Shown piece after piece: positions 1 to 64,000 of a DNA stretch of 64,000 bases; positions within the stretch are counted from its first letter, which is position 1; each line of letters opens with the position of its first letter. The stretch spans positions 108,588 through 172,587 of the forward strand of contig ONKO01000003.1 of the NCBI GenBank assembly GCA_900318445.1, given 5' to 3'. Below the pieces are notes generated by a model. It was not told the origin of the DNA. It ran no database searches and saw nothing but the letters and a program-made list of their open reading frames with translations. Both the position numbers and the translations under genes were made by a program. Source of the stretch: an uncultured Bacteroidales bacterium (GTDB lineage Bacteria; Bacteroidota; Bacteroidia; Bacteroidales; UBA932).

Positions 1-824
1 GCAAACGGGAGCTCCAGTGGCTGGAGGAACTTCCCGCCGGCACTGAGGCCCATGTGGGACTTCGCGTCAATGTAGGCCTCGCGGAGGACGAAACCTTCTC
101 CCGCTTCGGCTTTGACGCGCCGGAACTGGCGCACGCCATCGGCCAAATTCATCGCATCCCCGGGGTTCGCCTTGCCGGTCTGCACCTGCACCGCACGTCC
201 AAAACGCGCAGCCTGGAAGTTTATCGCGCCATTGCCGCCAAGGCGTGCGAAATTCTCGAGACTTATCACCTCTCGCCCGAATATATTGACATCGGCGGAG
301 GATATTTTGGCGACATGCCCGGGAAACCTACATTTGAGGACTACGCCGCCACCCTTGCGGAGGGCCTCAAAGACTATCCCGGAGCCCGCATCATTGTGGA
401 GCCCGGCAACGCCCTCTGCGCCGGTTCCTTCTCTTTCCTCAGCAGCGTGCTGGACGTGAAAGAGGTTCAGGGAGAAACCATTGTCGTATGTGACGGAAGC
501 CGCAACGACATAGACCCTTTCTTCCGTAAAACAGACTATTTCAAGCAGTTTCCCACCGTGAAACCCGGAACGCCCACCGTTCCCAGCCAAACGGTCGTGG
601 GGAGCACCTGCCTGGAGAACGACCGCCTCTTCCACCTGGAGAACGGTCCTCGCCTTCAGGTGGGAGACCGCATTGCTTTTCTCAATACAGGTGCCTATAC
701 CATGGCGCTATCTCCCCTTTTCATCCGCTATTTCCCGCGGGTGTACGTGCTGGAAGACGGGCAGTACCGTCTGGCCAGTGAGGAGTGGCGCGCACAAGAC
801 TACTTAAACGCTTATGGAATATAA
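1..824 (+). CDS. PLP-dependent amino acid decarboxylase (DAP/Orn/Arg decarboxylase family 2), 5'-truncated by window edge
   Basis: The reading frame is open from base 3, so the start lies upstream of the window; 273 C-terminal residues are visible. It resembles fold-III PLP decarboxylases such as LysA: a YIDIGGGYFGD phosphate-binding loop (about nt 285-310), EPGNALC in place of the usual EPGR, a CDGSRND stretch, STCLENDRL in the position of the catalytic CESxD loop, and a GAYTMALSP C-terminal barrel segment. The departures from canonical motifs (EPGN, LHLHRTSK in place of HxGS) say it is not housekeeping LysA. It overlaps the ATP-grasp gene by 11 bases and heads the nonulosonate operon, so the amine it makes is probably used in that pathway. 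The catalytic lysine domain is outside the window. Substrate unknown. Confidence 0.8.
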   Translation, partial: KRELQWLEELPAGTEAHVGLRVNVGLAEDETFSRFGFDAPELAHAIGQIHRIPGVRLAGLHLHRTSKTRSLEVYRAIAAKACEILETYHLSPEYIDIGGGYFGDMPGKPTFEDYAATLAEGLKDYPGARIIVEPGNALCAGSFSFLSSVLDVKEVQGETIVVCDGSRNDIDPFFRKTDYFKQFPTVKPGTPTVPSQTVVGSTCLENDRLFHLENGPRLQVGDRIAFLNTGAYTMALSPLFIRYFPRVYVLEDGQYRLASEEWRAQDYLNAYGI

Positions 825-1812
825 TCTTCTTTGTTGCAACGTGGGCCGTCGCGGCCGCCTGATGCTGGATTTCCGTCAGTCCCTCGCCGGGAAAGGCACG
901 GTGGTGGGCACCGACAACTGGTCGGTGGCGCCCGCCCTCTTCCTGGCCGACAAGATGTACGTCACGCCCAAGATCAAAGACCCCGGCTATATAGACGAAG
1001 TGCTCGCCATCTGCGAGAAGGAAAAGATCCGTGCCGTGAGCACGTTCATCGATCCGGAAATCGAACTCCTGGCCCACTACCGCGACCAGTTCATCGCCCG
1101 CGGCATCCTGCCCCTGTGTCCCAGCGAGCACACGGCCCTGCTGTGCATGGACAAGTACCTCATGTTCAAGCACCTGAAGGAGAAGGGCGTACGCACGGTC
1201 CTCACCTACCGCACCCTGGCCGACTTCCAGGCCGGACTGGGCGCCGGAGAGATTGACTTCCCCGTGTTCATCAAGCCCGTCAAGGGCAGCGGCAGCGTAG
1301 GTGCCCGCCGGGTGAACGACATGGAAACCCTCAAGGAACTCTTCGCCGAAGGAGCCCACGACTACATCATCCAGGAACTGATGACCGGAGGAGACTGTGA
1401 TGCCGATGTCTACGTAGACTGCATCTCCCACGAGGTCGTTTCCGTCTTCTCCAAGCGCAAGATCGAGACCCGCATCGGCGGCGCCTCCAAGACCATCAGC
1501 TTCAAGGATCCCGCCCTCATCGACTTCGTGAAGGAAGTGGTGGGCGTGCTGGAGCTGAGCGGTCCCTGCGACATGGACTTCTTCTACAAGGACGGCCAGT
1601 ACTACCTGTCCGAGATCAATCCCCGCTTCGGCGGCGCCTACCTGCACGCTTACGGTGCGGGCGTAGACTTCGTAAAATACATCCTCCGCAACATGGACGG
1701 GCAGGCCAACGAGCCGGAAATCGGCAACTACGACGAAGGCGTGCTCATGCTCATGTACGACGACGTGGTCATCACCCGCGAGAAGGACCTCCTCAGAGAC
1801 TACCATGACTAA
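814..1812 (+). CDS. ATP-grasp ligase (carbamoyl-phosphate synthase large-chain-like)
   Basis: 332 residues with an N-terminal pre-ATP-grasp Rossmann part (MEYNLLCCNVGRRGRL, then a D at the end of strand 2) and an ATP-grasp core: FPVFIKPVKGSGSVGA (about residues 149-165) is the nucleotide loop, DYIIQELMTGGDCDADV the hinge, and EINPRFGGAYLHAYGAG starting at residue 267 supplies the metal ligands E and N. Family members join a carboxylate to an amine or thiol via an acyl phosphate. It starts inside the end of the decarboxylase gene and its end overlaps neuB by 8 bases, so translation is coupled. A plausible role is to attach an amino acid or amine to a sugar or carrier in the nonulosonate pathway; that is inference from context only. 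Confidence 0.8.
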   Translation: MEYNLLCCNVGRRGRLMLDFRQSLAGKGTVVGTDNWSVAPALFLADKMYVTPKIKDPGYIDEVLAICEKEKIRAVSTFIDPEIELLAHYRDQFIARGILPLCPSEHTALLCMDKYLMFKHLKEKGVRTVLTYRTLADFQAGLGAGEIDFPVFIKPVKGSGSVGARRVNDMETLKELFAEGAHDYIIQELMTGGDCDADVYVDCISHEVVSVFSKRKIETRIGGASKTISFKDPALIDFVKEVVGVLELSGPCDMDFFYKDGQYYLSEINPRFGGAYLHAYGAGVDFVKYILRNMDGQANEPEIGNYDEGVLMLMYDDVVITREKDLLRDYHD

Positions 1813-2803
1813 GACCTTCATCATAGCCGAAGCCGGCGTGAACCACAACGGCCGCCTGGACCTGGCGCTCAAGCTCTGCGACGCCGCGAAGGCCGCCGGG
1901 GCCGATGCCGTCAAGTTCCAGACGTGGGTGACGGAGAAAATCATTTCTCCGGACACGCAGAAGGCCGATTACCAGAAGGCCAACACCGGCGCGGCGCAGT
2001 CCCAGTACGAGATGTTGAAGGCGCTGGAGCTGGGCTATGGGGAATTCGAGCAGATCAAGCGCTACTGCGACTCCATCGGCATCACCTTCCTCTCTACCGG
2101 AGACAACCCCGAGGACATCGACTTCCTGCTGGGGCTGGGCATGCCGCTGGTGAAAATCGGCTCGGGAGATATCACCAACATTCCCCTCCTCCGGCACATC
2201 GGCGCCTGCGGAAAACCCGTCATCCTCTCTACCGGCATGGCCGATATGGAGATGGTGAAGCGGGCCTACCGCACCCTGCAGGAAGCCGGTGCCCGTGAGA
2301 TTACCGTGCTCCACTGCACCACCAACTACCCCTGCCCGCCGGAAGAGGTGAACCTGAAGGCCATGCTCACCATCGGCCGGGAGCTGGGCTGCCCCGTGGG
2401 TTATTCGGACCATACCCTGGGCAGCGAGGTCCCCGTGGCCGCCGTGGCCCTGGGCGCTACCGTCATCGAAAAGCACCTGACGCTGGACGCCCGAATGGAC
2501 GGACCGGACCACGCCGCCTCCATGGAGCCCGCCCCCTTCGGGGAGATGTGCCGGGAGATCCGCGCCATCGAAAAGGCCCTGGGCAGCGGCGTCAAGGAGC
2601 CCAACGAGAGCGAGAAGAAGATCTGCGGCGTAGTGCTCAAGCGCATCGTCGCCGCCCGTCCCATTGCGAAGGGAGAGATCCTGTCGGCCGATAACCTCGC
2701 CGTCAAGCGCGCCCCCGAAGGGCCCGCCGCCTCCTGCTGGGACCAGGTCATCGGCACCACGGCCGGCAAAGACTACAAGCAAGACGAAGCCATCCAATTA
2801 TGA
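1805..2803 (+). CDS. neuB: N-acetylneuraminate synthase family protein (NeuB/LegI-like)
   Basis: 332 residues. Condenses phosphoenolpyruvate with a six-carbon amino sugar to give a nine-carbon nonulosonic acid. Visible are the TIM-barrel start FIIAEAGVNHNG, AGADAVKFQTW, the STGMAD strand, HCTTNYPCP, GYSDHTLG and EKHLTLDARMDGPDH, all typical for NeuB, plus a C-terminal SAF/antifreeze-like domain (about residues 275-332, KRIVAARPIAKGEILS). Whether the product is sialic, legionaminic or another nonulosonic acid cannot be told from the sequence; the PtmE-like and SDR genes downstream favour a legionaminic-type route. It overlaps the next gene by 4 bases (ATGA). Confidence 0.9.
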   Translation: MTKTFIIAEAGVNHNGRLDLALKLCDAAKAAGADAVKFQTWVTEKIISPDTQKADYQKANTGAAQSQYEMLKALELGYGEFEQIKRYCDSIGITFLSTGDNPEDIDFLLGLGMPLVKIGSGDITNIPLLRHIGACGKPVILSTGMADMEMVKRAYRTLQEAGAREITVLHCTTNYPCPPEEVNLKAMLTIGRELGCPVGYSDHTLGSEVPVAAVALGATVIEKHLTLDARMDGPDHAASMEPAPFGEMCREIRAIEKALGSGVKEPNESEKKICGVVLKRIVAARPIAKGEILSADNLAVKRAPEGPAASCWDQVIGTTAGKDYKQDEAIQL

Positions 2804-63833: not shown

Positions 63834-63866
63834 AAAAAAAGGCCGGCTCCAAACAGAGCCGGCCTT
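63834..63866 (-). terminator. Intrinsic terminator of gapA
   Basis: On the minus strand an 11-bp stem AAGGCCGGCTC / GAGCCGGCCTT with 6-base loop is followed by seven Ts, 23 bases after the gapA stop. Confidence 0.92.
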
Positions 63867-63888
63867 AAAGAAGTGTTTCCGAAACAAC

Positions 63889-64000
63889 TTACTTGGTGAT
63901 CACCTTAGCCATTTCGCAAACCTTGTTGCTGTAACCCCACTCGTTGTCGTACCAGGCGCAAACCTTCACGAAGGTCTTGTCCAGCTGGATACCGGCCTTC
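63889..64000 (-). CDS. gapA: Glyceraldehyde-3-phosphate dehydrogenase, C-terminal 36 residues (truncated by window edge)
   Basis: Visible residues include [20 protein letters not shown], the highly conserved C-terminal GAPDH motif WYDNEWGYS, then [12 protein letters not shown] and the stop. The catalytic and NAD-binding parts lie beyond the window. Central glycolysis, cytoplasmic. Confidence 0.93.

Follow-up and report, generated by a model that had tools for sequence, protein, structure and literature searches.

The octamer in the window and in its genome

The window, as the whole 64,000-nucleotide stretch analysed here is called, comes from an uncultured Bacteroidales bacterium (assembly GCA_900318445.1, contig ONKO01000003.1, positions 108,588 to 172,587), has a GC content of 57.9%, and includes a Bacteroidales-type signal recognition particle (SRP) RNA gene (24075-24182) and a phosphoglucomutase gene (58307-60028). 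It lies on contig 16 of a metagenome-assembled genome (MAG) of 2.31 Mb that is 88% complete. The subject of this report is a non-palindromic octamer, GGCCGATG (reverse complement CATCGGCC), of which the window (1-64000) holds 75 copies, 28 on the plus and 47 on the minus strand, against 5.7 expected from an order-2 Markov model (trinucleotides), making it the top octamer by z-score. The heptamer GGCCGAT is found 115 times (47 plus, 68 minus) against 15.6 expected. The uneven strand split in the window (28:47) does not extend to the genome (812:829 over 1.83 Mb).

Seventeen of the octamers are packed into about 5.5 kb (56176-61633). Ten read GGCCGATG on the plus strand, at 56176-56183, 57291-57298, 57379-57386, 57502-57509, 57925-57932, 57973-57980 and 58093-58100 and, within the phosphoglucomutase gene, at 58672-58679, 58906-58913 and 59227-59234; seven lie on the minus strand and so read CATCGGCC on the plus strand, at 56555-56562, 56573-56580, 57207-57214, 60515-60522, 60588-60595, 61293-61300 and 61626-61633. 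The initial annotation, made from the sequence alone, had counted 23 heptamers between 56.1 and 61.7 kb (11 GGCCGAT and 12 ATCGGCC), 17 of them extended to the octamer; the former count is exact, and the latter agrees exactly with the positions listed above. It had also placed a copy in Ala-Ser-Ala codons at 24561, where the word is indeed present but starts at 24567 (24567-24574, minus strand), with another at 24607-24614 on the same strand. One plus-strand copy (16108-16115) lies between called genes and is followed by GCGCAGGTTCC, as in the intergenic arrays.

Across the whole genome (G000) the octamer occurs 2,058 times (1,021 and 1,037 copies on the two strands), or about 0.9 times per kb, against 97 + 125 copies of the reversed word, a crude control given that GGCCGATG stands 2 to 4 times above its reversed form even in outgroups. 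The proposal of a genome-wide iterated, non-palindromic word is borne out. Detailed analyses of genes, codons and orientation cover 1.83 Mb (79% of the genome), in which 1,233 genes were called with a simple gene caller of our own. Here the genic copies number 1,503 against 231 ± 13 in synonymous shuffles within genes, so that a 6.5-fold enrichment stands against a codon-aware expectation, and the 134 intergenic copies exceed the Markov expectation of 10.7 by 12.6-fold and occupy 131 distinct contexts, which shows that the enrichment is not limited to a few gene families. The density is 0.45-1.28 per kb in all contig stretches of at least 15 kb, and the word is read in all six frames, most commonly as xxG-GCC-GAT-Gxx (650), xCA-TCG-GCC (417) and xxC-ATC-GGC-Cxx (356).

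The word overrides codon preference, as the initial annotation had suggested. Asp is encoded by GAT at 650 of the 794 places (82%) where both neighbours complete the word, at 176 of 640 (28%) where neither does, and at 27% of places overall; the corresponding word-capable places carry GAT in 19 of 58 cases in word-poor relatives and 7 of 19 in outgroups. Similarly, Ser is encoded by TCG at 417 of 427 xCA-Ser-GCC places, compared with 695 of 1,959 elsewhere. Codon usage and composition are ruled out as the cause by the synonymous shuffles together with the intergenic counts. A modest share of the copies does derive from Ala-Asp, Ser-Ala and Ile-Gly codon pairs (the 231 that the shuffles keep), and there are a few tandem arrays (5 of the 134 intergenic copies repeat a 20-base context); however, given an excess of this size over the codon-aware expectation, in six frames, between genes and throughout the contigs, it is barely credible that the word stems from chance, from base composition or codon usage, or from a handful of repeated gene families, an explanation that the counts already refute. 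The word is real, and it is actively kept.

The core of the word is sharp. All 18 single mismatches inside GCCGAT occur at 0.33-1.45 of the codon-shuffle expectation, and four of these forms are depleted, namely GTCCGATG (0.33), GACCGATG (0.45), GGCTGATG (0.55) and GGCCGACG (0.75). The outer bases are more tolerant: other first bases are found at 1.5-2.5 times expectation, and a last base of A or T at 5.6 and 3.7 times, respectively. The form ending in C (GGCCGATC) is the sole last-base variant that is not enriched (0.97), in line with a general shortage of GATC. This tetramer is strongly depleted in 353 kb of the same genome, where codon shuffles predict 204 copies of GATCGA and 199 of CTGATC against the 37 and 28 observed.

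Orientation is balanced at every scale considered. The 812:829 split is even (binomial p 0.69), neighbouring words share a strand in 770 of 1,613 cases (binomial p 0.07), and the copies within genes comprise 713 sense and 790 antisense (p 0.05). In bins of 10, 20 and 40 kb (40 kb being the upper limit in the last set, whose bins each hold 8 words or more) the chi-square values are 86.7 over 116 bins, 55.3 over 89 and 32.7 over 56. The most uneven 40-kb bins of the three largest contigs stand at 14:25 and 18:29, and C17 is the single uneven contig (9:25) among 29. Orientation signals (Chi, the FtsK-orienting polar sequences KOPS and the architecture-imparting sequences AIMS) were rejected as the best account by this balance. 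As a separate observation, the two orientations are distributed more evenly over the 10-40 kb bins than chance would give (upper-tail p 0.98-0.998), as though neighbours tended to alternate.

The gaps between words are slightly clumped (coefficient of variation 1.19 in 353 kb). In the 1.83 Mb, nine gaps exceed 6.5 kb where about five are expected, and five exceed 9 kb where 0.5 are expected. The longest, a word-free stretch of 17.1 kb with 52.5% GC, encodes a DDE transposase, an EcoRI-family methyltransferase, a GmrSD/HNH protein and a nucleotidyltransferase, and because of this transposase and restriction-type gene content it looks like acquired mobile DNA. The word is absent from this island. 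Its genes lie at about 3955-11630 of locus L168 (G000:C27:20001-40000), and a protein of the GH18 family is also encoded there. Other gaps hold ordinary genes, one of them a V-type ATPase-like operon (identified by eye), so that not all gaps are foreign.

Distribution, dialects and the fate of homologous sites

Strong enrichment of the word is restricted to a single clade of uncultured Bacteroidales of the gut, most of them from ruminants. A survey of the family took in 149 genomes, 11 belonging to the genus; outside the genus the maximum was 442 copies, in a genome of another genus (G067) whose reversed control stands at 176 and whose count is thus only mildly raised. Within the genus, 35 of 200 rows (own genome included, counted by eye) carry at least 500 copies, roughly equally on both strands, with a maximum of 2,061 (G266). 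A scan with the window's phosphoglucomutase yielded 80 loci from relatives, which are Bacteroidales MAGs, judging by their titles mostly of ruminant origin, and probably belong to GTDB Cryptobacteroides. In a tree of 81 proteins, many inner forks of which are weak, the word is frequent in the majority of a 53-row clade (support of 95 in the Shimodaira-Hasegawa-like approximate likelihood ratio test, SH-aLRT) and scarce in, among others, a GC-rich group of nine nested inside it (SH-aLRT 96). Counts over whole genomes, made for 47 of those in the tree, agree, with 1,802 copies in G346 and 1,678 in G349, 0.24-0.31 words per kb in the GC-rich group, and 247 copies in the 2.8 Mb of the outgroup G387. 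In the outgroups and the GC-rich group, GGCCGATG is near or little above the trinucleotide expectation (0.7-1.7 times).

The low level in this nested subclade suggests that the word was lost there. A pair of near twins, L069 (G386) and L054 (G373), had been considered as a clean case of word loss and was dropped on suspicion of a mixed bin: the two loci share a pair of collinear stretches of some 3 kb each (identity 90 and 92%) that have the words in common, and G386 as a whole is at control level (129 versus 129), so it looks like a mixed bin. The L069/G386 loci remained in the word-poor group of the site-retention analyses described below.

Within the clade the core GCCGAT is constant and the outer bases differ by species, giving a clade-wide word KGCCGATR with three spellings, GGCCGATG, TGCCGATG and GGCCGATA. 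Whole-genome counts, in this order, are 2,058, 624 and 604 in the window's own genome and 1,307, 228 and 695 in G345; 806, 1,476 and 427 in G367, 736, 1,352 and 343 in G385, and 1,130, 1,224 and 429 in G372; and 1,350, 579 and 1,339 in G371, 1,478, 608 and 1,432 in G376, and 783, 333 and 737 in G378, where GGCCGATA nearly equals GGCCGATG. Sister species in the tree have the same dialect, as seen for L047 and L068 (G367, G385) and for L052, L057 and L059 (G371, G376, G378). Compared with its reversed control, GGCCGATA is near background in the GC-rich group (163:136 in G361, 186:136 in G365, 166:130 in G368 and 174:134 in G377), in G363 (76:108) and in the outgroups G375 (93:85), G383 (128:124) and G387 (95:116). 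In the remaining 21 of the 29 genomes searched it stands at 4 to 12.6 times the control, except in G347 (3.7), G385 (3.3) and G373 (2.8).

The fate of individual sites was followed by matching the genome's own proteins to the other loci with tblastn (1,638 matches; proteins with more than 5 X or an internal stop left out) and comparing identical amino-acid sites in 682 protein-guided, codon-aligned pieces, with one own site counted in several species. Word-rich species retain the word at 150 of 255 sites, whereas other octamers in the same amino-acid contexts are retained at 16 of 67. Word-poor species, grouped by hand like the word-rich ones, retain 12 of 66, at a synonymous identity close to that of the word-rich species (0.589 and 0.597, respectively), and outgroups 1 of 49 at a synonymous identity of 0.496; matched controls for these two groups number 5 and 2, which is too few. 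Without the nearest species, the word-rich group retains 137 of 230 sites against at most 80 by a codon-by-codon prediction, and the nearest species 13 of 25 against 8.9. Counted as distinct own sites, mean retention is 0.56 for the 66 seen in word-rich and 0.24 for the 23 seen in word-poor species, and for the eight sites seen in both groups it is 0.47 and 0.20. In the T-dialect pair, GGCCGATG is retained at 10 of 32 sites, as predicted (10.2), and a further 10 of the 32 read TGCCGATG; in the remaining groups taken together, TGCCGATG stands at 19 of 370 (Fisher p 1.7e-5). This spelling swap at homologous sites and the matched-octamer contrast are the firmer of these results.

Possible readers of the word

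Several families of iterated DNA words invite comparison. Like the DNA uptake sequences (DUS) of Neisseriaceae, the word is non-palindromic, occurs on the order of once per kb, equally on both strands and both in and between genes, has dialects that track the phylogeny while keeping an invariant core (PMC3630211), and is missing from one apparently mobile island, though also from a gap with an ATPase-like operon, DUS and the uptake signal sequences (USS) of Pasteurellaceae being atypically distributed in mobile elements (PMC7371117). Two Neisseria strains hold 1,543 and 2,964 DUS copies (PMC3630211). DUS and USS are likewise non-palindromic and without orientation bias, and USS share with the word the existence of more than one spelling, two in their case (PMC1939737). 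USS also resemble it in density, with about 1,300 copies in H. influenzae. The differences are that the present word is an octamer with a 6-base core, whereas DUS are 10-12-mers with a 3-base core, and that it belongs to another phylum. Overall, the balanced orientation, the fixed core with changing outer bases and the restriction to one clade fit DNA uptake sequences better than Chi or the cyanobacterial highly iterated palindrome HIP1.

The explanation we favour, with slightly less than even confidence, is that the word is maintained by sequence-biased DNA uptake and recombination. GGCCGATG would then be the local form of a recognition word, KGCCGATR, shared across the clade and imposed on the resident chromosome by a sequence-reading step, most likely the uptake and recombination of DNA from close kin with a preference for word-bearing fragments. 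As such fragments would overwrite alleles without the word, copies would build up wherever the proteins tolerate them, on both strands and in genic and intergenic DNA alike. A shift in the specificity of the reader would change the outer base genome-wide and so create a dialect, and loss of the reader would leave the word to decay. Besides the number and symmetry of the copies, the sharp core, the dialects and the keeping of sites, a ComEC/Rec2-related protein encoded in the window's own genome speaks for this explanation. That a reader exists and acts in DNA uptake is what we infer from this pattern.

A number of observations weigh against this explanation. ComEC is found in 30 of 31 genomes, rich and poor alike, the sole miss being the word-rich G372, and the ComEC/Rec2-related protein encoded in the window's own genome is a 373-residue open reading frame (ORF) with a ComEC N-terminal domain that falls below the curated cut-off for full ComEC/Rec2. 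A simple motif search of the 1,233 called genes (from 79% of the genome) found no type IV pilins, no uptake receptor was identified, and we know of no member of the clade that is competent. The only flank signal is a mild excess of C two bases downstream, which reaches 52% for the copies of the window (0.26 bits) and 53% for 132 intergenic sites (0.23 bits), so that the flanks carry little information, unlike those of USS. Outgroups and word-poor genomes also hold 2 to 4 times as many copies of TGCCGATG as of its reversed control, and the control therefore understates the background. Since the species groups were picked by word density, the rich-poor contrast in retention is partly built in. 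Finally, inverted pairs, of the sort common near transcription terminators in Neisseria and Haemophilus, are not prominent: 105 neighbouring pairs lie within 60 bp of each other against 86 expected, of which 54 are opposed (12 of them as the overlap CATCGGCCGATG) and 51 on the same strand. The word differs from DUS in this respect as well, but only about 10% of copies are given as inverted repeats (PMC1939737), so that inverted pairs are no strict requirement for DUS or USS. A role in terminator hairpins was rejected, as close pairs are not mainly inverted.

The next most likely explanation, though unlikely in itself, is that a chromosome-organising or other intracellular DNA-binding protein (a nucleoid protein, a condensin loader or a repair factor) binds the word and selection keeps about one site per kb. 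Nucleoid binding and repair, both raised by the initial annotation, are possible roles. Such a protein would account for a genome-wide, orientation-balanced word in and between genes and for the keeping of homologous sites, and dialects would track changes in the protein; however, the spacing is irregular, the gaps above 9 kb are ten times as many as expected and one of them spans the V-type ATPase-like operon, and a needed structural site would hardly vanish in one subclade. It is less likely again that the octamer is Chi-like and regulates a RecB/AddA-type helicase-nuclease at double-strand breaks. It shares with Chi a short, non-palindromic, over-represented sequence, and a RecB-like helicase with a weak PD-(D/E)XK match, below curated cut-offs, is encoded in the same genome (L012:10850-13837), where it and FtsK lie on the same contig as the ComEC ORF. 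Chi, though, is oriented relative to replication, whereas here the two orientations balance out in 10- to 40-kb bins, with C17 as the one uneven contig, in a MAG whose origin and terminus are not known, and intergenic enrichment (on the Markov expectation) is at least as strong as genic.

The initial annotation had likened the word to HIP1 and suggested a tie to DNA methylation, and neither idea is borne out. HIP1 is palindromic and almost coextensive with its cognate methyltransferases (PMC4390886), and neither property is found here, the second as far as the families searched are concerned. Across 24 genomes, five methyltransferase families were searched, of which four (N6_N4_Mtase, C5 DNA_methylase, MethyltransfD12 and N6_Mtase; PF01555, PF00145, PF02086 and PF02384) have no match in the word-rich G000, G346, G353 and G369, themselves incomplete MAGs, and the fifth, Eco57I (PF07669), is matched only weakly in G000 (23.2 bits, a frame of 303 residues) and G346 (19.8 bits, 301 residues) and not at all in G353 and G369. 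Matches elsewhere are scattered over word-rich and word-poor genomes, and none of these five families is shared by the word-rich set with more than weak matches, a result that does not extend to MmeI-type, EcoRI-type or novel enzymes, which the cross-genome searches did not cover. In 79% of the window's own genome, where every frame of 120 residues or more was screened by motif, only an EcoRI-family and an RsmD-like protein (the latter assigned by eye) looked methyltransferase-like, and the former, the sole DNA methyltransferase found in G000, lies inside the word-free island. Neither ComEC nor the five families separate word-rich from word-poor genomes. Methylation is thus poorly supported as the basis of the word, and it is improbable that a methyltransferase with methylation-directed repair creates or keeps it, even though HIP1 too is a genome-wide iterated octamer that deviates mainly at its outer bases and is replaced by alternate HIPs in some species (PMC4390886). 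Hardly more can be said for a function-free mutation or repair bias directed at the word (a mismatch-repair or gene-conversion preference), which ranks slightly lower still: the four depleted forms are what conversion toward the word would give, but most other one-mismatch core forms are at or above expectation, no enzyme of this kind emerged, although none was sought, and dialect changes would require a change of specificity in any case.

Uptake and recombination are therefore preferred because most features of the word are described for DUS, while the methyltransferase tie of HIP1 (for the families tested) and the orientation of Chi are not seen. More tentatively, we suggest that a Bacteroidota system of sequence-specific uptake and recombination, with its own evolving dialects (KGCCGATR) and a receptor other than a known type IV pilin, may keep one gut clade cohesive, an idea that is plausible though somewhat doubtful. 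To our knowledge, only two proteobacterial families have uptake words that form dialects; searches of the open-access literature (PMC) brought up no uptake word for Bacteroidales and no paper containing the present word. If the word tags self DNA for uptake, these abundant uncultured inhabitants of the gut would exchange genes by a species-coded route, and if its reader instead acts within the cell, the word would be a new genome-organising or repair signal. With 35 of 200 genus genomes holding at least 500 copies, three spellings and a word-poor subclade, the clade is a ready comparative system for finding the reader.

Other iterated words

Other words recur in the same genome. In 231 kb of its intergenic DNA, ACCTGCGC is found 112 times (8.9 expected), CGTCGCAG 90 times (6.2 expected) and GTACGTAC 74 times (4.5 expected). 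Locus L012 holds tandem arrays with a 21-bp unit in which GGCGCAGGTTCC is combined with GGCCGAT, as well as hairpins that resemble repetitive extragenic palindromes (REP), TTAGAGTAACTGACGGGT...ACCCGTCAGTTACTCTAA (by eye), at about 14121-14168, 15489-15536 and 18237-18284; these adjoin a protein that weakly matches Y1/IS200 transposases (L012:14326-15444). Among the relatives, AAGTGCGT, GTGCGTTA and GCGTTACA are over-represented in G353 (L032, L118, L130 and L131), and AAATGACA and GCTCGAAA in L068. CATCGAC/GTCGATG reaches about 4 to 8 times the trinucleotide expectation, which does not account for codon usage, in G344, G347, G353, G372, G377 and the G365/G368 group, and thus in word-poor genomes too. 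In the window itself, a tandem array with a period of 52 bp at about 23.3-24.0 kb comprises 13 matches of TTTCTAGATG from 23339 to 23963; it lies directly upstream of the SRP RNA gene, and a related single unit is found at 34728.

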